Positions 3,865-63,761 of a DNA stretch of 64,000 nt are shown in pieces; within the stretch, counting starts at the first letter, position 1; each line of letters opens with the position of its first letter. The position numbers and the translations under genes were made by a program. The DNA is taken from IMG/VR virus record IMGVR_UViG_3300032360_001735, positions 1-64,000 of that record. One strand, 5' to 3'. The stretch is from a virus. The notes below the pieces were generated by a model. That model saw only the letters and a program-made list of their open reading frames with translations, was not told the origin of the DNA and did not search any database.

Positions 3865-5021
3865 GTATTCTTTCCGTAAATCTCATTCGACTGCTGCGTC
3901 ACTCTCACAAAAGTAGCACACTTGGGCATATCCTTTAGCCTTCTGGCTCCTATGTAGGTACAAGCAGACCGTAAGCCGCCGAGGATGCTCTCTAGCGTGT
4001 TTTTGACAACCCCCCTGTGCTTGACCCTGACTGTTTTGCCCTCCGCGCTCCTATATTTGGCTACACCGCCGTTGTGCTTCTCCATAGCGTCCTTGGAACT
4101 CATGCCGTAAAAAGTCTTATATTTTGTGCCGTCTATTTCTTCTTCTTGTCCTTCGCACTCCGTATGTCCAGCCAGCATACCACCAAGCATAACAAAATCA
4201 GCACCACCACCAAAAGCCTTGGCAATATCTCCAGCATTGGTGCAACCGCCATCAGCCATAATATACCCCCCAACGCCATGAGCGGCATCGGCACACTCGA
4301 CCACCGCGCTAAATTGGGGATAACCCACACCAGTCTGAATACGAGTAGTGCAAACAGAACCGCTTCCAATACCGACTTTGACAATATCTGCTCCACTTAA
4401 TATAATCTCCTCTGTCATTTCGCCAGTAACAACATTCCCAGCAATAATAATAAGTGCTGGATGTTCCTCCCTGACTCGTTTAATAAAATCGCAAAACCTC
4501 GCCGTGTACCCATTTGCCGCATCAATGCAAACAAACCTAGTGTGATAGAAATTCCAAGTAATGTTCTGGAGGTAATCTAAATCATCCGTTTTTTTGGGGT
4601 CGTACTTAATCCCAATAGAGGGGCAAATGTGGTCGTAAATTCTGCTCTGCCAATCCTTCGCTCCTCGTTCATATTTCCAACTTCCTTCGTTAGCTTCTCT
4701 CTGCTCTTTATTTTTCCAAACTCCATAACCGTTCAGTTTATGCGCCCATCTATCTCCATCGTTATGCTTGCTGATGCAAGTCAGCATATTGTATTGAGCG
4801 AGTTTTTTAGCCATCTCGAAAGTACCAACCGTATCCATATTTGAAGCCACAATCGGTACACCTTTCCAACTATAACCCTTTGGGTCTGCTCCTTCTCCAC
4901 CAGCATGAGGAAAATTGAACTCACGCACTAAATCGACATCCTTACGGGACTCTAATGTAGAACGCTTTGGGCGCATAAGAACGTCCTTGTAGTCTAACTT
5001 TGTGTCGTTTTCTATCCTCAT
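3861..5021 (-). CDS. guaC: GMP reductase (IMPDH/GMPR family), 386 aa
   Basis: Catalyses NADPH-dependent conversion of GMP to IMP. The N-terminus ([18 protein letters not shown]), [27 protein letters not shown] with catalytic Cys224, [18 protein letters not shown] and the C-terminal [11 protein letters not shown] match bacterial GuaC closely. It lacks the CBS domains of IMP dehydrogenase. It is about 40 residues longer than E. coli GuaC, the extra being an insertion near residues 88-125 rich in Trp, Lys and Glu. In a phage it would rebalance purine pools during replication, alongside nrdA/nrdB and dCMP deaminase. Its untranslated leader contains a GC hairpin (5082-5098). Confidence 0.93.
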
Positions 5022-5081
5022 TTAATAAAAATTAAAAAATAGTTCGCGGTGTTAATGAAGGGATAGAAGTAATCATCCTGT

Positions 5082-5098
5082 GCGTGATTCTCTCACGC
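5082..5098 (-). promoter_or_regulatory. hairpin in the guaC upstream region
   Basis: A perfect 6-bp stem GCGTGA/TCACGC with a 5-nt loop lies in the roughly 95-nt gap between the collagen-like gene and guaC. It has no T-run and could be a processing site, an attenuator element or incidental. Confidence 0.3.
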
Positions 5099-5117
5099 CT
5101 CTATTCCGCAAACATAA

Positions 5118-5624
5118 TTAGCTTAAATACTCGTCTATCTCGCTTCTTCCTATTTTGCGTACTTTCGCATCCATTGGAATGTAAAACACTACATCGTGAT
5201 GTCTCATTTTGAAAAGGAAGTCGTCGTATTCATCCATAAATCTAGCAACCATGCCTATTCCCTCGACCTTGTAAAGCCTACCCCTTACCATATCCTCTGG
5301 TAATACCACTTGACCAGCGTAAGCCTCCTGCTCACCTTTCCAGCCCTGTGTGCCTTTCGGCCCTATCGGCCCTATCGGCCCAACCAGTGCCGTTGGCGAA
5401 TCAAACTGCTCTGAAAAAGCCTTTTCCATTTCTTTCATGCTTTGTTTAATGCTCTTGCCAACCCATCCTTTATTATCGCCGCCGCCAACATATTTGCCAG
5501 TTGTTACGTCACATCCTGCATCATCTACAATCTTCAGCACTTGAGTTGGGCCATAGCCTGTATCTTGTAGGTAAAATACGGTAAACTCACTACCATCCTT
5601 GGCTAACATTTTCGATTTTTTCAT
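5118..5624 (-). CDS. collagen-like repeat protein, 168 aa
   Basis: Residues about 82-98 form five consecutive Gly-X-Y triplets (GPIGPIGPKGTQGWKGE), a short collagen-like segment that could nucleate a trimer. It is flanked by an N-terminal part with a helix (KQSMKEMEKAFSEQF) and a C-terminal globular part beginning after residue 105. Collagen triplets are common in phage fibre and surface proteins, but this gene is in a metabolic region, so a structural role is only a possibility. Function unknown. Confidence 0.7.
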   Translation of the reverse strand: MKKSKMLAKDGSEFTVFYLQDTGYGPTQVLKIVDDAGCDVTTGKYVGGGDNKGWVGKSIKQSMKEMEKAFSEQFDSPTALVGPIGPIGPKGTQGWKGEQEAYAGQVVLPEDMVRGRLYKVEGIGMVARFMDEYDDFLFKMRHHDVVFYIPMDAKVRKIGRSEIDEYLS

Positions 5625-5629
5625 AATTA

Positions 5630-5836
5630 TTAAATAATACTAAACAGCTTTAACAGAATAACAATCTGGAGGGTCACGGTGAGCAACGCAAGGCAAGTCC
5701 TCGCTAATTCCATAATGTGATTATATTTGTCCAGCTTTCTTTCGAGGCGATACATCGACTCTGGTATTTTTTCTTCTTCCATTGGGTTAATTTCGGCCCT
5801 TCGCAGCATAGTTGCTTCTTCGCGTGATATTGGCAT
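5630..5836 (-). CDS. small membrane protein, 68 aa
   Basis: The C-terminal 25 residues (LARTCLALLTVTLQIVILLK) form one hydrophobic segment after a charged coiled region. The ATG at 5836 overlaps the upstream stop as TAATG, so it is preferred over a longer start at 5893. This would be a C-tail-anchored inner membrane protein. Function unknown. Confidence 0.6.
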   Translation of the reverse strand: MPISREEATMLRRAEINPMEEEKIPESMYRLERKLDKYNHIMELARTCLALLTVTLQIVILLKLFSII

Positions 5837-15739: not shown

Positions 15740-15767
15740 ATTATAGACTGTTATTTTTGAAAATCAA
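15740..15767 (-). promoter_or_regulatory. sigma-70-like promoter for the Tat-protein gene
   Basis: Minus strand: TTGATT (15762-15767), 16 nt, TATAAT (15740-15745). The -10 box is 5 nt before the ATG. No AGAA element. Confidence 0.65.
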
Positions 15768-16444
15768 GACGTATGAGCGCACAAAATAAACATATCTAAG
15801 TGTCCCTGTTGGGCTGTATTTGCCACCACTGGGCTTCCCCAGTGCCATAGCTTTTTATCGTCTATCATTACCATTTCGCCATCATCAAGCTCATATCTTA
15901 GAAATGGCTCGTTTTCATGCGTGTTGAGTGGCCCACCTTGGTCAACTTCATATCTATTTTGGTAAAGATGCACCGCCCCGCCACTGATGTTGTCTCTGCT
16001 TATTGAAATCATGCCTATTCGGTCAAAGCCGTCTTGATGAACTCCTTCTGGTGCAAGCTTGGATTCTCCGTTTAGGGTAACGCAACGCATCTGGTGAACG
16101 TCAATTTTCTGTCCGTCTATCATGTTATTTGCGTTTTTGAAGATGAGGCAAATCTCCTTAAACCCGTCGCTTTGCAAGACTTCTTCTTCGATATTTTCGA
16201 ATACGCGCTTCATTCCCCCTTGGTGCTTATTGTAGTCTTCGCTTTGCGTGAAGTCTTTAATGGGAAGATGCTCTATTTCCGCTTCCTCCTTTGCGTTCCA
16301 AAAGCTGGTGCGAAGCTCTATCACGGAATAACGCCTGAGTCTGAACTTACCGTCCTTGTGGTCTGTTTCTGGAAGCCTGTCGAATGAGTCTTGTAGCTCT
16401 GTCACGGCAGAGTTGCTTATCCTTGTTAGTTCTAGTGTTTTCAT
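15764..16444 (-). CDS. 2OG-Fe(II) dioxygenase family protein, 226 aa
   Basis: Residues 130-165 read PEGVHQDGFDRIGM and then DNISGGAVHLYQ, followed by MVMIDDKKLWHWGSPV near 195-210. This is the HxD...H core of the 2OG-Fe dioxygenase family (PF10014) that includes free amino-acid hydroxylases. It would use 2-oxoglutarate and oxygen; the substrate is unknown. Its ATG overlaps the stop of a small membrane peptide gene. A second iron-dependent hydroxylase is at 25.2 kb. Confidence 0.75.
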   Translation of the reverse strand: MKTLELTRISNSAVTELQDSFDRLPETDHKDGKFRLRRYSVIELRTSFWNAKEEAEIEHLPIKDFTQSEDYNKHQGGMKRVFENIEEEVLQSDGFKEICLIFKNANNMIDGQKIDVHQMRCVTLNGESKLAPEGVHQDGFDRIGMISISRDNISGGAVHLYQNRYEVDQGGPLNTHENEPFLRYELDDGEMVMIDDKKLWHWGSPVVANTAQQGHLDMFILCAHTS

Positions 16445-16566
16445 TTTTTGTCCTTTCTAAAGAGCGAAAATATAATGTGATAAATAGCGTAAAAGAAGTA
16501 ACCAACACTATAAACCGCTAAAAGAAATAAATCTTTACAATACTCTAACCCCTTTTTTTGTTCCAT
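16441..16566 (-). CDS. small membrane peptide, 41 aa
   Basis: A 42-codon frame from the ATG at 16566 with one hydrophobic segment (LFLLAVYSVGYFFYAIYHIIF) and a basic tail. It overlaps the 3' end of the proline dehydrogenase-like gene and shares ATGA with the dioxygenase gene, so it is probably translated. Confidence 0.55.
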   Translation of the reverse strand: MEQKKGLEYCKDLFLLAVYSVGYFFYAIYHIIFSLFRKDKK

Positions 16567-17378
16567 TTAATACTTTCCTTTATTATATTATAGGAAACAA
16601 ACTTAAGGTTTTTCCATTCTTTTAATCTCCTCACGACGTAGGGTAGCCAATGTTCGCCAAATGGTATATAAATTCTAACTCTGTACCCTTTATTTTTTAA
16701 GTCTCTTTGCAAGTCTCGCCTGATGCCGTAAAGAAATTCATAATCGTATACGTATTCGGATGATATAATTTTATTTAATAGTTTTTCGTCATGCGTGGCA
16801 ATCGTTGGTTTATTTGCCCCTCTGAGCGCCAAATGTGTTGCTAGGCTGGCGAATCGTGCTTGAACGGTTGCTGCGTCGAGGTCGCCCTTGTACGCCCCTT
16901 TAACCAGCCTGACCGAAACATTATTGTCTATTAAGTGGTCAATATCTTCCTCGCTTCTATTTAGGTTAGCCTGTATGGCTACCCCTACATTACCATATTT
17001 TTTATTTAAGGAAATTGCAAGGTTTCTGGTTAGCTCAGTCACGTTGGTGTCTTCCATGTCTAGGCGTATCGTATGCCCGTTCTCTTTGGCTCTCAATGCT
17101 ATCCTCATTACGTAGCGCCAAGAAATATAAGGGTTTATGAGCATCCCTAGTTGAGTGGGCTTGATGGAAATGTCTATATTTCTGCCGTTATAATATTTAA
17201 TTATTTTAAGATACTGCTTGAAAGCTGACTTACAATCACGGATGGTCTTGCTGTGTTCTCCGACGTAATCAACGGACACCTCGTATCCGTCATCTAATAG
17301 CTTATTTATGGAGTTTTTCGCGGAATTAAGATCATAACCCGCTATGAATCGTTTGACTAGTGGAAATAAAAGTTTCAA
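16545..17378 (-). CDS. proline dehydrogenase homologue (PutA/ProDH), 277 aa
   Basis: FAD-dependent TIM-barrel enzyme that oxidises proline to pyrroline-5-carboxylate. Family blocks are present in order: FIAGYDLNSA, DYVGEHSKT, ISIKPTQLGM, IRLDMEDTNV, VAIQANLNRSEED, VRLVKGAYKGD, FLYGIRRDLQ and VRIYIPFGEHWLPYVVRRL. Length fits the catalytic barrel without the DNA-binding or dehydrogenase domains of PutA. The start is a TTG at 17378, just after TATAATATGAG; a downstream start is possible. An aldehyde dehydrogenase at 62 kb could in principle complete the pathway, but it is not linked. Confidence 0.82.
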   Translation of the reverse strand: MKLLFPLVKRFIAGYDLNSAKNSINKLLDDGYEVSVDYVGEHSKTIRDCKSAFKQYLKIIKYYNGRNIDISIKPTQLGMLINPYISWRYVMRIALRAKENGHTIRLDMEDTNVTELTRNLAISLNKKYGNVGVAIQANLNRSEEDIDHLIDNNVSVRLVKGAYKGDLDAATVQARFASLATHLALRGANKPTIATHDEKLLNKIISSEYVYDYEFLYGIRRDLQRDLKNKGYRVRIYIPFGEHWLPYVVRRLKEWKNLKFVSYNIIKESIKWNKKRG

Positions 17379-24166: not shown

Positions 24167-24718
24167 ATGAAACATATTCCGAAATGCCTAAGGCACCCTC
24201 TCTGGTTGTTAGCTATTATTTTGTTCGTTTGGTACCTGTCCTTTGGCTATAAATATGGATTTATTTACAATCACGGTGTTAGCATGCAGCCCACCATCGA
24301 GGATGGGGAGTGGATTATAATGCAGAAAAGATCCACCATGGAGAAAAAGTGGACGCCAGACAGATATGACGTTGTTATCATTAATGATGTGAGCGCGGGA
24401 GACAGGCTCTCTAAAAGAATTATAGGCTTACCCGGAGACACTATAGAAGTCAATGAGGGGGTCATATATTTGAATGGAAGAGAATTAGAAGACCCATTTG
24501 GAAAAGGAAAAATACTGGTCTATCTCGTAGACGACAACGATAAAAACTTAATATACTGGAATGGGCCAGAAGCGGGTGCGCCAGTCGTGCAAATGATAAG
24601 CCACACAAAAGAAAAAATTAAAGAAGGGTATGTATGGGTTATTGGGGACAATAGATCAGAATCTTGGTACGGTATGTTACCAATAAAAGATATAAAAGGG
24701 CTAGCGGTGATCTTTTGA
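24167..24718 (+). CDS. lepB: type I signal peptidase, 183 aa
   Basis: Membrane-anchored serine protease that removes signal peptides. The N-terminal span (PLWLLAIILFVWYLSF) is followed by GVSMQPT with the catalytic Ser39, KRIIGLPGD with the general-base Lys83, and GDNRSESWYG (box E) near the C-terminus. The length fits compact SipS-type enzymes. The gene is one of two on the plus strand in an otherwise minus-strand arm. Substrates may be the phage's own exported proteins, such as the serine protease at 26 kb. Confidence 0.92.
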   Translation: MKHIPKCLRHPLWLLAIILFVWYLSFGYKYGFIYNHGVSMQPTIEDGEWIIMQKRSTMEKKWTPDRYDVVIINDVSAGDRLSKRIIGLPGDTIEVNEGVIYLNGRELEDPFGKGKILVYLVDDNDKNLIYWNGPEAGAPVVQMISHTKEKIKEGYVWVIGDNRSESWYGMLPIKDIKGLAVIF

Positions 24719-25187: not shown

Positions 25188-25748
25188 TTACACAGAACTC
25201 GTAAAAGCATCCTCGTAAAAATCAAATATCATGACCACTCTGTCTTTGTCCGTGTTATTCTGCGCTTCGTGCTCAATTGTATCATCAAATATGAGGATCT
25301 CTCCTTCCCTCCAAGTCTTCGTTTCTCCACCGACCCTTAGCCAGCAATCCTTTTCGGGAATTATGACTCCGTCCTGAGTGGGCCTTGGTACAGATAGAGC
25401 TAAATGAGATCGTATGATTCGATTATCGGCAATATAGCCAGTATGAGGATATATATGTGCGCCAGCCCTAAGCCAACTAAACCCAACTCCATGAAGGTGG
25501 CTCTGATCTATTTTACTGAGCAATGAGGTGGTCTTGGGGTAATCCGAGGGGGAGTTGAAGAGAAATCTACCGTCTGCGTAAAGAACGCGAACCATCCATT
25601 TTCCATTGTGAATTACCTCTGGAGCGTCTTTGGTGACCGCCCAAGGGTGGAACTTTCTGCTTCCAAACTCATTAAATTCCTTGAGCGCCGTAGGGAAGAT
25701 TTTAGTAATTAAATCAGCGTGCTTTAATTTTTTAGTATTTATAAACAT
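25188..25748 (-). CDS. aspartyl/asparaginyl beta-hydroxylase-like dioxygenase, 186 aa
   Basis: Residues about 92-176 carry FSWLRAGAHIYPHTGYIADN, RSHLALSVP, CWLRVGGETKTWREGE and FDDTIEHEAQNNT, the pattern of the Asp/Asn beta-hydroxylase family (PF05118), including the two iron-ligating His. The start at 25748 (MFINTKKLKH) removes an unlikely upstream extension. It would hydroxylate a protein or peptide side chain, or act on a lipid or secondary metabolite as in related enzymes. The second Fe(II) dioxygenase of the window. Confidence 0.78.
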   Translation of the reverse strand: MFINTKKLKHADLITKIFPTALKEFNEFGSRKFHPWAVTKDAPEVIHNGKWMVRVLYADGRFLFNSPSDYPKTTSLLSKIDQSHLHGVGFSWLRAGAHIYPHTGYIADNRIIRSHLALSVPRPTQDGVIIPEKDCWLRVGGETKTWREGEILIFDDTIEHEAQNNTDKDRVVMIFDFYEDAFTSSV

Positions 25749-25857
25749 AAAAGGGAAGACGCAACGCGCACCCGCAAGCACGCGTTACGTCGTTACTCCA
25801 CCTTGGTCATCCCCTTGGCACCCCATAATCTTCTTTAAAAGACTAGGTGTGGAAATA

Positions 25858-30431: not shown

Positions 30432-30475
30432 GAAAAAACCCGCCGCGCAAAGCCAACGAAACGCGACGGGTTTTA
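30432..30475 (-). terminator. strong Rho-independent terminator
   Basis: On the minus strand, AACCCGTCGCG pairs with CGCGGCGGGTT (one G-T) around a 14-nt loop, followed by TTTTTC. It ends the ACP operon just before the UDP-glucose dehydrogenase promoter. Confidence 0.85.
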
Positions 30476-30565: not shown

Positions 30566-31300
30566 CTACTCAACTTGCTTGCCTCCCTTGGGTAGTTTAA
30601 TCTTGGCCTCACCCTCCTCCTTGTCTAGCTTCTTCATCTCTTCTTCTACGTTAATCACGGCCACGGTGGCGTCGCTGTACTCGCTCATATAGTCGCCCTG
30701 ACTGTATTCATCAGTGAAAATCTTAGTCGTTTCTAGTTCCGTTTTCTTTCGCTCTTTAGCTTTTACTTTGGCTTGTTTTTCTCTCTCCTTGTCTCTCTTG
30801 GCTATATCCTCTGGGAAGAGCGTCTTGTCAAAGAGGAAGTCCCTAAGGTGACCGACGGTCTGTATCTTATTAAAGTCCATCAGCGTGTTATCTATTTCCA
30901 CTCCGTACTTGTCTTCTAGATCGAGAAGCATCTCAATGGCTTCAAGAGAGTCTAAGTCGAGGTCCTCCTTAAGTCTAGACTTTAAGGTGACTTTTACCCC
31001 TTCTTGAGCCACGTTTAGTGCGATTTCCTCCTTGAGAACCTTAGAGAAGAGTTTTTTGTCTGGACAAAGACCCATATTTACCCCGCCAACGATTTTGCTG
31101 GCCGTGGGCTTACTAACGGCCTTTTTCTTTGGCTTTGATGGATTCTTTTTGCCTTTGGTGCGGCGAGAGCCGTAAACGATTTCGTCTGGCCACGTGCTGG
31201 GGTCGGAACTGTCTACCGCTGGCTTGTGGCTAACAACATTGCGAGACACCTTGTCGCCGAGCTTAACTGGTTTTTTCTTGCTGTTCTTTTTCGGTTTCAT
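30566..31300 (-). CDS. acyl carrier protein with long charged tails, 244 aa
   Basis: Residues about 82-160 form an ACP four-helix domain with the phosphopantetheine-attachment motif LDLDSLEAIEML (Ser118) and EDKYGVEID. Unlike free ACPs (about 80 aa), it has a basic N-terminal tail of about 80 residues (KKNSKKKPVKLGDK) and a charged C-terminal tail of about 85 residues. The gene is two genes downstream of acpS in the same operon. It could carry an acyl or amino-acyl group for glycan or lipid modification, but no ketosynthase or acyltransferase is recognised. It could also be a host-ACP decoy. Confidence 0.85.
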   Translation of the reverse strand: MKPKKNSKKKPVKLGDKVSRNVVSHKPAVDSSDPSTWPDEIVYGSRRTKGKKNPSKPKKKAVSKPTASKIVGGVNMGLCPDKKLFSKVLKEEIALNVAQEGVKVTLKSRLKEDLDLDSLEAIEMLLDLEDKYGVEIDNTLMDFNKIQTVGHLRDFLFDKTLFPEDIAKRDKEREKQAKVKAKERKKTELETTKIFTDEYSQGDYMSEYSDATVAVINVEEEMKKLDKEEGEAKIKLPKGGKQVE

Positions 31301-31544
31301 TCTTCTTCTCTATTAGGGTTAGATTCAATTTGGAGCACATAATTTTATACTGTTCTATATGTTCGGGTTTAACCTGATTTGCTGCGCATGTCAATTTATG
31401 ATGTAATGCGGGTAGTTTTGTTGCGGCTATGGTATCCATGTCTATGTCTTTCATGCCTCCAAACGGAAACAAATTATTAACTACATACAAAACAATCCCT
31501 TTCTCTTCGTCTGTTAAAGTGTTTAGGACATGCCTATAAATCAT
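31263..31544 (-). CDS. hypothetical protein in ACP/AcpS operon, 93 aa
   Basis: Helical protein (LTDEEKGIVLYVVNNLFP, TKLPALHHKLTCAANQV) ending in a charged tail. It overlaps both acpS (4 nt) and the ACP gene (38 nt), so it may act with them. No family recognised. Confidence 0.6.
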   Translation of the reverse strand: MIYRHVLNTLTDEEKGIVLYVVNNLFPFGGMKDIDMDTIAATKLPALHHKLTCAANQVKPEHIEQYKIMCSKLNLTLIEKKNETEKEQQEKTS

Positions 31545-31921
31545 TCCCAGCTTTCCACGATTGTCGTCGCTGTTGCATACTCTCTAGTGTGACTCACGCT
31601 CACGTGAACGTCGCACTCTAGGTTGCAAAACGTTTCTAGTGCGTACTTGCTGAACTGAATGTAAGGCTGACCCGACTCCCTTCTCCTAAGCTCTATGTGC
31701 TTCCACTCCATCTTGGCTCCTATTCCGTGCCCAAAGCACTTAGCTGTGGCTTCCTTCGCCGCAAACCTAGCAGCAATATACTGCGCTGGGTTTTCATGAG
31801 ACAAACAGTATTCTTTTTCGTCTGCCGTCAGGATTTTATTTAAAAATCTTTCGCCCCATCTGTCAAAGAGTCGCTGAACCCTAACCACGTCAACTATATC
31901 TGTTCCTATCCCTAATATCAT
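31541..31921 (-). CDS. acpS: holo-[acyl-carrier-protein] synthase, 126 aa
   Basis: Transfers 4'-phosphopantetheine from CoA to the ACP serine. The N-terminal GIGTDIVDVVRVQRL carries the first metal-binding Asp, and the AARFAAKEATAKCFG motif carries the Glu and Lys of the active site. VSVSHTREYA near the C-terminus also fits. The length is typical. A phage acpS next to an ACP gene means the virus can activate its own carrier protein. Confidence 0.93.
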   Translation of the reverse strand: MILGIGTDIVDVVRVQRLFDRWGERFLNKILTADEKEYCLSHENPAQYIAARFAAKEATAKCFGHGIGAKMEWKHIELRRRESGQPYIQFSKYALETFCNLECDVHVSVSHTREYATATTIVESWE

Positions 31922-32196
31922 AATATTTCCACTATTAATTGACCACCCATTGTCACTTGGACGCTCTGATTATCATTTAGCTCTTTGATTAGACGCCTGT
32001 CGTCCTCATTTATTTTATGAGCTAGCGAGCCAAAATAGTCCACTAAGATTTGTGTCTTTTGTGTTCTCTCGCATTTACAGCAGTTTCTTGAGATGTCTCT
32101 AAGGCTCATGAGGGTATTAATAGCGTCGCTATCAGCAAACTTTTCCCTGTGTTGCTGAATAAAGTTAAAAAATTTTGATCCATCGATGACTACCAT
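31918..32196 (-). CDS. hypothetical protein, 92 aa
   Basis: Contains CCKCERTQK near residue 40 and looks helical before a short beta C-terminus. Overlaps acpS by 4 nt. Function unknown. Confidence 0.6.
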   Translation of the reverse strand: MVVIDGSKFFNFIQQHREKFADSDAINTLMSLRDISRNCCKCERTQKTQILVDYFGSLAHKINEDDRRLIKELNDNQSVQVTMGGQLIVEIL

Positions 32197-32197
32197 T

Positions 32198-32542
32198 CTA
32201 ATAGAGTTTTTTTATTATAAAAAATAAAGACAAACTAATCAAATTAATTACCGGAAAATACAAAAAGGAAAAATCGCCGCTTAGGGTGGCTACTGCGGAC
32301 AGCCAGACGGAAAGGCAAAGGGGGCAAGTGATAAGGCTTATCCAGAAGGAGTCACAGTATTTAACCCTCAAAAAATCCAAATAATCCACCTCGGAGCATA
32401 GAGCGTCATTCTCGTAGGCTGTAATATGAAAATGGAGAGAGAAGCCGAAGGCCTTGGCGTAATGCACAAACGCGTCAGTTTCAAACCATATTATTAGAGC
32501 TAACGCAACCCAACAAGATAAGACAATGAGCTCTACCGCCAT
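32198..32542 (-). CDS. membrane protein, 114 aa
   Basis: Hydrophobic segments near the N-terminus (IVLSCWVALALIIW), around residue 70 (DSFWISLITCPLCLSVWLSA) and at the C-terminus. The CPLCLSVW motif is common in small phage membrane proteins of unknown role. Overlaps nothing but is closely packed. Confidence 0.6.
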   Translation of the reverse strand: MAVELIVLSCWVALALIIWFETDAFVHYAKAFGFSLHFHITAYENDALCSEVDYLDFLRVKYCDSFWISLITCPLCLSVWLSAVATLSGDFSFLYFPVINLISLSLFFIIKKLY

Positions 32543-61244: not shown

Positions 61245-62214
61245 CAATTACATAACACCAGAAGTCGGCGTAAATAAAATCTTCATAGCTGGTCATCAAG
61301 GCATGGTTGGTTCCGCGATTGCCAAAAAACTAGGAGAAGGATACATCCACGCTAAAAAACGAGTCCTTGACTTACAAAGACAAGACAAAGTAGAAGCCTT
61401 CTTCGCTGAATATCGCCCAGAAATCGTTATCTTGGCGGCGGCAAAGGTCGGTGGAATTCACGCAAACAACACGTACAGGGCGGAGTTCATGTACAATAAT
61501 TTACAAATCCAAAACAACATAATCCACTCCTCTTGGTTATTCGGAGTCAAAAAATTAATATTCCTAGGCAGTTCTTGCATCTATCCCAAATTTGCAGAAC
61601 AGCCCATTAAGGAAGAGTACCTGCTTTCCTCGCCTCTTGAGTACACAAACGAACCTTATTCTGTAGCCAAGATTGCTGGAATCAAAATGTGTGAAAGTTA
61701 CCACAAGCAATACGGTTGCAACTTCATTGCCGTAATGCCATGTAATCTGTATGGACCCAACGACAATTTTCACAATGAAGACTCTCATGTTCTCCCGGCG
61801 CTAATTAGGAGATTTCACGAAGCTAAACAAAATAACGAGCCCCACGTTGAGGTTTGGGGCACGGGGAAAGCTCAGAGAGAATTCATGCACGTCGACGACC
61901 TAGCTGATGCTGTTCTCTTTACTCTCCGAAAGATAGACGCAGAGCATATCTACAAACAAAACATTTCCCATTTAAACATAGGCACTGGTCAAGAAATATC
62001 CATAGCAGAACTCGCGAAAAAAATCGCACATACAGTTGGTTACGAAGGAGAGATAAGGCACCAGCTTGACAAACCCGACGGGACATTACGCAAGCTATTA
62101 GACGTTTCCAGACTTGAGCAGTTCGGATGGAAACATAAAATAAGCTTAGAAAATGGACTTAGCGACACCTATAACTGGTATGGCGAACAGGACGCAGCAA
62201 ATTTGAGGTTATGA
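61237..62214 (+). CDS. fcl: GDP-L-fucose synthase, 325 aa
   Basis: IFIAGHQGMVGSAIAKKLG, ILAAAKVGGIHANNTY, FLGSSCIYPKFAEQPIKEEY and EPYSVAKIAGIKMCESYHKQ match GDP-4-keto-6-deoxymannose epimerase/reductase (Fcl/WcaG) along nearly the whole length. It would make GDP-fucose, or a 6-deoxy-heptose analogue if its partner dehydratase acts on GDP-heptose. The matching GDP-mannose dehydratase is not in the window. Confidence 0.92.
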   Translation: MYSNYITPEVGVNKIFIAGHQGMVGSAIAKKLGEGYIHAKKRVLDLQRQDKVEAFFAEYRPEIVILAAAKVGGIHANNTYRAEFMYNNLQIQNNIIHSSWLFGVKKLIFLGSSCIYPKFAEQPIKEEYLLSSPLEYTNEPYSVAKIAGIKMCESYHKQYGCNFIAVMPCNLYGPNDNFHNEDSHVLPALIRRFHEAKQNNEPHVEVWGTGKAQREFMHVDDLADAVLFTLRKIDAEHIYKQNISHLNIGTGQEISIAELAKKIAHTVGYEGEIRHQLDKPDGTLRKLLDVSRLEQFGWKHKISLENGLSDTYNWYGEQDAANLRL

Positions 62215-63761
62215 ATCACCACTTTATGCAATTCGAAGGCAGAAATTATATCAATGGAGTATGGAAAGCTACCGCCGACATGTACTCCAAGATTAACCCA
62301 TCCACAGGAAAGGCCCAAGGAGCGTTCCCGTCAAGTGGACCAAGCGACGTCGGCACCGCCGTGCTGGCTGCTCGGAAAGCGTTCAAAAGCTGGAAAAAAG
62401 TAAGCCGCTTTGTCCGTTCAGACTACATGAACAAGGTCGCTCAACTTATTGAAAGAGACAAAGAGAAACTGGCTGCGGTTATCTCCCTAGAGACAGGTAA
62501 AAACTACAACGAAAGCGTCGCTGAAGTTAACGAAGCTCTCCACATGGCTCAGTTTGCTTTCGGTTCTGGCCGCTACTCACATGGAGAGGCCGTTTCTTCT
62601 GAGATTGCCGACAAGGATTCCTACATGCTTCGGAAACCAAAGGGTGTAATAGCAATTATAACACCATTCAATTTTCCTTTGGCGATTGGAATGTTCTGGA
62701 ACGCCGCCCCCGCCCTTGTAGAAGGAAACACAATAGTAATTAAACCAAGTGAAGATGCTCCAATGTCCACCCAAATGGCTGTCAAGATTTACGAGGAAGC
62801 TGGCATTCCTCGCGGAGTCATTAATCTGGTGCATGGTGACGGGCTCGTTGGTAATCTTTTGGCTCATGCTGATATCGACCATATTTGCTTTACTGGTTCT
62901 GCCGAGGTTGGGCAGTCTATTAGAAAAGTAGCCGCCGAGAGTTGGCACAAAACCACCTCATGCGAAATGGGCAGCAAGTCTGCCTGTATTATTTTTGACG
63001 ACGTAGAGATGGACCTAGCTGTAGAGTCCGCGGTTGCTAGCGCATTTAAACTCTCTGGCCAACGGTGCGTTTCCTCTAGTAGGATGATAGTCCAAAGAAG
63101 CGCCTATGACGAGTTCGCTAAGAGATTCGCTGAAGAAGCTTCTAAATTAAAAACAGGCAATCCATTTAAAAAGGTTTTTTCATCAAGCGGAGACCCGGGG
63201 TGCGTAGGCTGGGAAGACTATGTTCCCGACGAAAGCGTTTATTATGGTCCGATCATCAACAAGCAAGGATTTGAAAAAATAAAAAAATATAACAACATGG
63301 TCTTGAATGACCCGCTGGCAGAAGTTCTGTTGGACCCTGTTTATGAGGACATAAATGATAGAGCTTTCTTTTCTAGCCCAATGGTTTACAAGGTCGAATG
63401 GAGAGGGGTAGACGCTCCATACCTTAGGAACGAAGTCTTTGGCCCCCACGTCGCAGTTATCCCCTTTGATACTTTAGAAGATGCGATCCGTATTTATAAC
63501 GATACTGAGTACGGCCTTGCGGTTGGCGTTCTTACGAATGATTTCCGCAAAGCACGAGTACTCCGAGACGAATGCGACGCGGGGATGATTTATTGGAATG
63601 GTGGGTCTATCGCTGCTGAATCTCACCTTGCTTTTGGCGGAGTTAAGAAGTCCGGAAACGGGTTCCCAAGCGCGGCCAGAACATTCAGGGCTGTAACCCA
63701 CGAGATCAGTTGGACAGTTAACCATGCAGATAGATTAACCTTTCCACAAGGAATGAAATAA
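62211..63761 (+). CDS. NAD(P)-dependent aldehyde dehydrogenase, 516 aa
   Basis: Full-length ALDH-superfamily enzyme with ITPFNFPLAIGMFWNAAPAL, IVIKPSEDAPMSTQ, the catalytic CEMGSKSACIIFDD Glu and SGQRCVSSSRMI Cys. Substrate not predictable. It lies in the glycan operon and may act on a sugar aldehyde; alternatively it may complement the proline dehydrogenase homologue at 16.5 kb. Confidence 0.88.
   Translation: MNHHFMQFEGRNYINGVWKATADMYSKINPSTGKAQGAFPSSGPSDVGTAVLAARKAFKSWKKVSRFVRSDYMNKVAQLIERDKEKLAAVISLETGKNYNESVAEVNEALHMAQFAFGSGRYSHGEAVSSEIADKDSYMLRKPKGVIAIITPFNFPLAIGMFWNAAPALVEGNTIVIKPSEDAPMSTQMAVKIYEEAGIPRGVINLVHGDGLVGNLLAHADIDHICFTGSAEVGQSIRKVAAESWHKTTSCEMGSKSACIIFDDVEMDLAVESAVASAFKLSGQRCVSSSRMIVQRSAYDEFAKRFAEEASKLKTGNPFKKVFSSSGDPGCVGWEDYVPDESVYYGPIINKQGFEKIKKYNNMVLNDPLAEVLLDPVYEDINDRAFFSSPMVYKVEWRGVDAPYLRNEVFGPHVAVIPFDTLEDAIRIYNDTEYGLAVGVLTNDFRKARVLRDECDAGMIYWNGGSIAAESHLAFGGVKKSGNGFPSAARTFRAVTHEISWTVNHADRLTFPQGMK

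Follow-up and report, generated by a model that had tools for sequence, protein, structure and literature searches.

What would a phage do with an acyl carrier protein (ACP) encoded beside its own holo-ACP synthase (AcpS), and where would the acyl group on such a carrier go? This question is raised by a locus on the minus strand of a 64,000-nucleotide stretch of viral DNA (hereafter the window), which represents positions 1 to 64,000 of the IMG/VR virus contig IMGVR_UViG_3300032360_001735, 70,410 bases in length. The record belongs to a phage, a virus of bacteria; it carries phage genes for rIIA, sigma factors, bS21, DNA ligase and ribonucleotide reductase, as well as tRNAs, four of which are located within the window.

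ACPs have been described in phages before, with a function called unclear (PMC5463345). In Erwinia Eneladusvirus jumbo phages an ACP has been detected by mass spectrometry (PMC7760394), and Roseobacter prophages (roseophage) carry the gene set fabG-acpP-fabF (PMC8224337). A 2010 report credits two cyanophages of Prochlorococcus from the ocean, P-HM1 and P-HM2, with both an ACP (T4-GC457) and an ACPS (T4-GC500) (PMC3037559), and no reports of phage AcpS beyond these two were found in the open-access literature.

Organization of the Locus

Three open reading frames (ORFs) were described in the initial annotation, in the order of AcpS, a gene without a recognized family that overlaps both neighbors, and ACP, and the positions and the order were both verified. 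The AcpS-type holo-ACP synthase of 126 aa (31541..31921, minus strand) is followed by the middle ORF of 93 aa (31263..31544, minus strand), which shares 4 nt with the AcpS gene and 38 nt with the ACP gene and has no match in Pfam or PHROG. The ACP itself (30566..31300, minus strand) is a protein of 244 aa composed of a basic N-terminal tail, an ACP core and a charged C-terminal tail.

On the upstream side, a 92-aa protein with a CCKC motif (31918..32196, minus strand) overlaps the start of AcpS by 4 nt, preceded by a 114-aa hydrophobic protein (32198..32542, minus strand), which is probably a membrane protein judging from its hydrophobic stretches on inspection. The former has a weak match to PHROG 22439, a family without an assigned function, the latter has no Pfam or PHROG family match, and neither gene has a match in reference phages. 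On the downstream side, an intrinsic terminator with a 14-pair stem and a subsequent T run (30435..30474, minus strand) was identified by folding (-24.7 kcal/mol, z -2.9, with none of 200 shuffles equally stable) and, in a shorter form, by a pattern scan. A UDP-glucose-dehydrogenase-like gene, assigned by Pfam, lies past this terminator. Since a strong terminator stands just after the ACP gene, AcpS, the middle ORF and ACP likely form a single operon, apart from the downstream sugar genes.

The Holo-ACP Synthase

The reading of the first gene as a complete holo-ACP synthase is borne out by its Pfam, NCBIfam and PDB matches and by its intact catalytic residues. The protein reaches 70.2 bits against Pfam ACPS (cut-off 25, E 1.8e-19) and 114.4 bits against NCBIfam TIGR00516 (curated cut-off 59.8), the latter match covering aa 1-124 of 126, and it is matched to AcpS structures in the PDB with E of about 1e-21 (1.9e-21 for 1f7l). 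The residues assigned as catalytic in AcpS, namely D8, E57, K61 and the SxSH motif, are all present; D8, E57 and K61 line up with those of 1f7l and are invariant among eight aligned phage AcpS proteins, and the family signature, consisting of Asp, Glu and Lys in the GIGxDI and FAxKEAxxK motifs, is likewise found. The dN/dS of AcpS between the window and its close relative L003 (see below) is 0.061.

In family, length and catalytic residues, the phage enzyme is the same as bacterial AcpS (TIGR00516; Bacillus subtilis 1f7l and the AcpS-ACP complex 1f80). It differs in being phage-borne and in adjoining an ACP, whereas the bacterial acpS loci examined are without an adjacent ACP. In a tree of AcpS, the three phages of the window clade cluster together (100/99) near Kapaibacteria/Ignavibacteria, with the deeper forks remaining open.

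The Acyl Carrier Protein and Its Tails

The phosphopantetheine site noted in the initial annotation is confirmed, with the serine of the DLDSLE motif being residue 118. The ACP core domain comprises aa 78-160 (30821..31069, minus strand), as delimited by alignment with PDB ACPs, which align with approximately aa 78-155 of the window protein; this core resembles the ACPs of type II fatty-acid synthesis (FAS). The protein scores 26.5 bits against Pfam PP-binding (cut-off 20.8) as a single ACP domain and matches PHROG 5934, "acyl carrier protein", at 9.7e-9, and the D-S-L residues are invariant in the ACP alignment. Against the housekeeping AcpP equivalog TIGR00517, by contrast, it attains 36.3 bits, with 70.45 being required. 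By this curated cut-off, the window ACP is not a housekeeping AcpP at the sequence level, and its 244 aa with tails differ from the approximately 75-80 aa of AcpP. Recognition of other ACPs by AcpS involves acidic residues of helix II, and E120, E123, E129 and D130 in helix II of the window ACP, following Ser118, match these by position.

A model of the core was built from an alignment of nine sequences; its confidence is low (pLDDT 47), and it contains helices in the ACP order, with the serine as the first residue of the longest helix. In Foldseek searches with this low-confidence model, the top matches were all ACPs (probability up to 1.00, best E 4.5e-3, TM about 0.4-0.5), led by the ACP of the AcpS-bound complex 1f80, and ACPs were also the best named structural matches among viral models. 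The full-length protein folded from its single sequence was uninformative (pLDDT 49.7). Structural prediction thus gave no sign of the failed ACP fold that the initial annotation had named as grounds for rejection; the model is consistent with the fold, and is by itself not proof of it.

The tails had been described as basic and acidic, which holds for the N-terminal tail (21 K/R versus 5 D/E in 77 aa), but the C-terminal tail (84 aa, residues 161-244) is of mixed charge, with 19 K/R and 21 D/E, and is not simply acidic. Between the window and L003, dN/dS is 0.305 for the N-terminal tail, 0.11 for the C-terminal tail and 0.011 for the core, the last value being approximate since the synonymous distance of the core is near saturation. 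The extreme constraint on the core and the laxity of the N-terminal tail indicate that the tails are ornaments of the lineage. They were considered as an essential or core feature of the protein, and this was ruled out by the lax N-terminal tail and by a tail-less orthologue in a second relative; to judge from these comparisons, they would be appendages specific to the lineage, serving docking or solubility and dispensable for catalysis.

Conservation in Related Viral Contigs

All three genes are found in the viral contig IMGVR_UViG_3300031800_000537 (L003), with AcpS 89% and ACP 75% identical to the window proteins. The middle ORF is 87% identical in L003, with a dN/dS of 0.22. A more distant contig, IMGVR_UViG_3300027627_000440 (L004), encodes an AcpS of 60% identity. 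There, a plain ACP of 78 aa directly overlaps AcpS in the place of the middle ORF, which is absent, followed by an ORF that resembles an HNH endonuclease on inspection and then by an ACP of 97 aa (L004:9209-9502), the orthologue of the window ACP without either tail, so that one AcpS is accompanied by two downstream ACPs. The 92-aa and 114-aa genes precede AcpS in all three contigs; the 92-aa protein is 83% (L003) and 31% (L004) identical, and the 114-aa protein 94% and 37%, respectively.

Conservation of the middle ORF in related phages, which had been proposed as a check, therefore holds in part: the ORF is kept in the close relative L003, and a second ACP is present instead in L004. Its exchange for that ACP implies that the module does not need it as a third component. 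The possibility that the middle ORF is a degenerate ACP was rejected, since it gave no local alignment to the plain ACP that occupies this position in L004. From these sequence comparisons, the conserved core of the locus is AcpS plus ACP, with the middle ORF and both tails as variable parts. The linkage of the two core genes holds from 89% down to 60% AcpS identity. A scan of viral contigs with an ACP profile returned only L003 and L004, the relatives already found.

As a control, 80 bacterial AcpS loci were taken from genome assemblies with flanks of at most 3 kb on either side, and an ACP-like ORF was detected with the phage-ACP profile in none of them; Rhodobacteraceae are heavily represented in the set and the profile is derived from phage ACPs, so this is a clear contrast and not a universal rule. 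Taken with the synteny in two other viral contigs, this result indicates that the linkage is more than chance, and it suggests that the phage arrangement is not a gene order inherited from such bacteria.

Comparison with Known Phage Carrier Proteins

Like the window phage, P-HM1 encodes an ACP with charged extensions together with its own phosphopantetheinyl transferase, and no ketosynthase was found in either record. The P-HM1 ACP (158 aa, with a charged C-terminal tail) has only the DSL region in common with the window ACP, as a 29-residue BLASTP match. The P-HM1 transferase (152 aa) is Sfp-like by inspection only, is not significantly similar to the window AcpS and is encoded 22 kb away from its ACP, whereas the window pair shares one operon. 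The AcpS-ACP pairing thus has a precedent in P-HM1 and P-HM2, and the window locus is set apart by a true AcpS-type enzyme in the operon of its carrier.

Stand-alone phage ACPs (PHROG 5934 and 4154; Erythrobacter phage R6L, Vibrio phage R16F and Eneladusvirus) are, like the window protein, small ACP-domain proteins; in the portions of the sources available, no phage AcpS is mentioned alongside them, and long tails are a feature of the window protein. The ACP of Roseobacter prophages is accompanied by FAS enzymes, whereas that of the window is accompanied by AcpS, with no FAS enzyme found.

AcpS in Other Phages

Further AcpS-bearing phage lineages were collected by an alignment-based scan after the removal of probable host genes at prophage edges. 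The IMG/VR matches L023-L029 and L044 were excluded because they probably represent prophage edges, with a host pdxJ-acpS context seen by inspection where the flank sufficed. Microcystis phage MaAM05 was not accepted as a precedent, as its record contains secDF, smc and scpAB genes and may be misassigned bacterial DNA, and the same may be true of unannotated "Listeria" and "Staphylococcus" phage contigs with an AcpS match, which were excluded likewise.

In the contigs L010-L012, an AMP-binding ligase, an ACP and AcpS are arranged in a row, possibly forming an amino-acyl or acyl loading module. In L042/L043, an ACP is located 3-5 kb from AcpS, with a ketosynthase next in L043, and in L045/L052, AcpS lies 4.3 kb from an ACP that is followed by a ketosynthase. 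The direct succession of ACP and beta-ketoacyl synthase (L052 6343-7760 and L043 9455-10884) was observed in two AcpS-bearing contigs that look unrelated. L039/G022 carry AcpS and, elsewhere on the record, an ACP preceded by a fatty-acid desaturase, and in L051, whose record also bears AcpS, a desaturase adjoins the ACP. The 142-kb record G003 (IMGVR_UViG_3300010885_039075), which groups with the L039 lineage by AcpS and neighboring genes, combines AcpS with five fatty-acid-desaturase matches; no ACP was found in it by Pfam, even at an E of 1, and this record may be incomplete. On the short contigs L037, L038 and L040, which are T4-like by inspection, AcpS is present and no ACP was seen. Overall, an ACP occurs in at least one record for five of the six AcpS phage lineages, with the window lineage counted, a figure that refers to lineages and not to acquisitions.

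Acyl Enzymes and Sugar Genes of the Record

The initial annotation recognized no fatty-acid or polyketide enzyme near the locus, and this statement extends to the whole 70.4-kb record, in which none was found. Ketosynthase, AMP-ligase, fatty-acid desaturase and GNAT were not found in this record or in those of L003 and L004, all of which are fragments; for other acyl-transfer families, coverage was by Pfam scans and extended to the larger ORFs of the window.

Genes for sugar metabolism are abundant. Many glycosyltransferases are encoded in the window, together with a fucosyltransferase, a phosphomannomutase, a fucose-synthase-like epimerase and heptose-pathway-like enzymes, and most of this set recurs in the L003 record. 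The L004 record carries NeuB, an aminotransferase, a ThDP enzyme and a DHQ-synthase-like enzyme. A very large sugar cluster extends over 42962-63761, with several glycosyltransferases, a FucT-like fucosyltransferase, a GDP-fucose-synthase-like epimerase, a GmhA-like isomerase, an HddA-like kinase, an RfaE-domain-II-like nucleotidyltransferase and a C-methyltransferase fused to an epimerase.

Several other genes of the record were also observed. A proline dehydrogenase (16545-17378, minus strand; Pfam 5.8e-28) and a large aldehyde dehydrogenase (62211-63761, plus strand) are both encoded; the latter falls below every equivalog cut-off, which leaves proline catabolism by the phage as only a possibility. 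A phage signal peptidase (24167-24718, plus strand; Pfam Peptidase_S26 3.5e-24) is conserved in L003. An aspartyl/asparaginyl beta-hydroxylase and a 2OG-Fe dioxygenase are located at 25188-25781 and 15764-16444 on the minus strand, and asparaginyl beta-hydroxylases are also present in P-HM1 and P-HM2 (PMC3037559). In L013, which represents record bases 60000-70410, adjacent TolQ/ExbB-like and TolR-like genes were recognized by inspection at 4417-5702, the TolR-like gene having no Pfam match.

Proposed Function of the Module

With some confidence, the locus can be regarded as a self-contained, self-sufficient holo-ACP module. Its first step is the firmest: the phage AcpS very probably transfers 4'-phosphopantetheine from CoA onto Ser118 of the ACP that shares its operon, a step deduced from two intact families, intact residues and linked genes. 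Holo-ACP would then be produced on the own schedule of the phage, independently of host AcpS, which may not accept so divergent a carrier. Because the operon supplies AcpS as well, a need of the phage for the holo form is suggested, which speaks for use of the phosphopantetheine arm. The acyl group could be loaded by an enzyme of the host, or by one that the phage encodes beyond the sequenced fragment.

The carrier might then hand its acyl group to a product under construction by the phage, and a surface or virion glycan is tentatively put forward as the candidate. In all three records, the module is accompanied by large clusters of sugar-nucleotide and glycosyltransferase genes, which makes a glycan the best local candidate, and delivery to surface sugars is plausible. 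Against this, the operon is cut off from the sugar genes by its terminator, and since the sugar genes adjoining the ACP are not the same in L003 as in L004, the link could also be a coincidence in a sugar-rich phage. That the dedicated holo-carrier acylates host-surface or virion glycans made by the phage nucleotide-sugar and glycosyltransferase genes is, in this specific form, a rather doubtful proposal. Delivery to a glycan in general stands as the first guess, ahead of lipid remodelling and then of a protein-binding or virion role.

Under the lipid reading, which is unlikely, holo-ACP would enter host fatty-acid synthesis and shift its flux or chain type, yielding membrane lipids suited to phage production or cold; the phage ACP would be used by host enzymes, with no phage acyl enzyme required. 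It is favored by the ketosynthase (L043, L052) or desaturase (L051) that accompanies the ACP in other AcpS phages, by the fabG-acpP-fabF genes of roseophage prophages (PMC8224337) and by the similarity of the core to type II FAS ACPs, but the ACP is far under the AcpP equivalog cut-off, no ketosynthase or desaturase was found in the three related records, and host AcpS would normally be enough for an AcpP-like carrier.

It is improbable that the ACP is instead a protein-binding or virion component, in which the tails would dock and the phosphopantetheine arm would be structural, by analogy with host ACP partnerships of the IscS type or with MukB. Such a role would accord with the mass-spectrometric detection of an ACP in Eneladusvirus (PMC7760394), with the position of the P-HM1 ACP and its charged C-terminal tail between baseplate-hub and fibre genes, and with the lack of any acyl enzyme found in the window record; no recognized structural genes are located near the operon in the fragment, however, and the tail-less L004 orthologue indicates that the tails are dispensable.

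Action of the phage AcpS mainly on host carriers, altering the pool of holo- and apo-ACP with the adjacent ACP as a secondary or competing substrate, is very improbable. Promiscuity is known for some phosphopantetheinyl transferases, and G003 has AcpS without an ACP match by Pfam, yet that record may be incomplete, and in the window clade AcpS always occurs with an ACP and once with two. The view of the two genes as a non-functional passenger of recent acquisition, for which nothing speaks but the rarity of AcpS in reference phages, can practically be dismissed, being contradicted by purifying selection on AcpS and the ACP core, by the intact catalytic residues and by the retained synteny.

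Implications

Phage ACPs have long been listed as auxiliary genes, and the compact two-gene unit described here makes the question of their function testable. AcpS is found in several phage lineages with differing ACP partners, including ketosynthase, AMP-ligase and desaturase, and from these differences, carrier-protein chemistry appears to be put to more than one use by phages.
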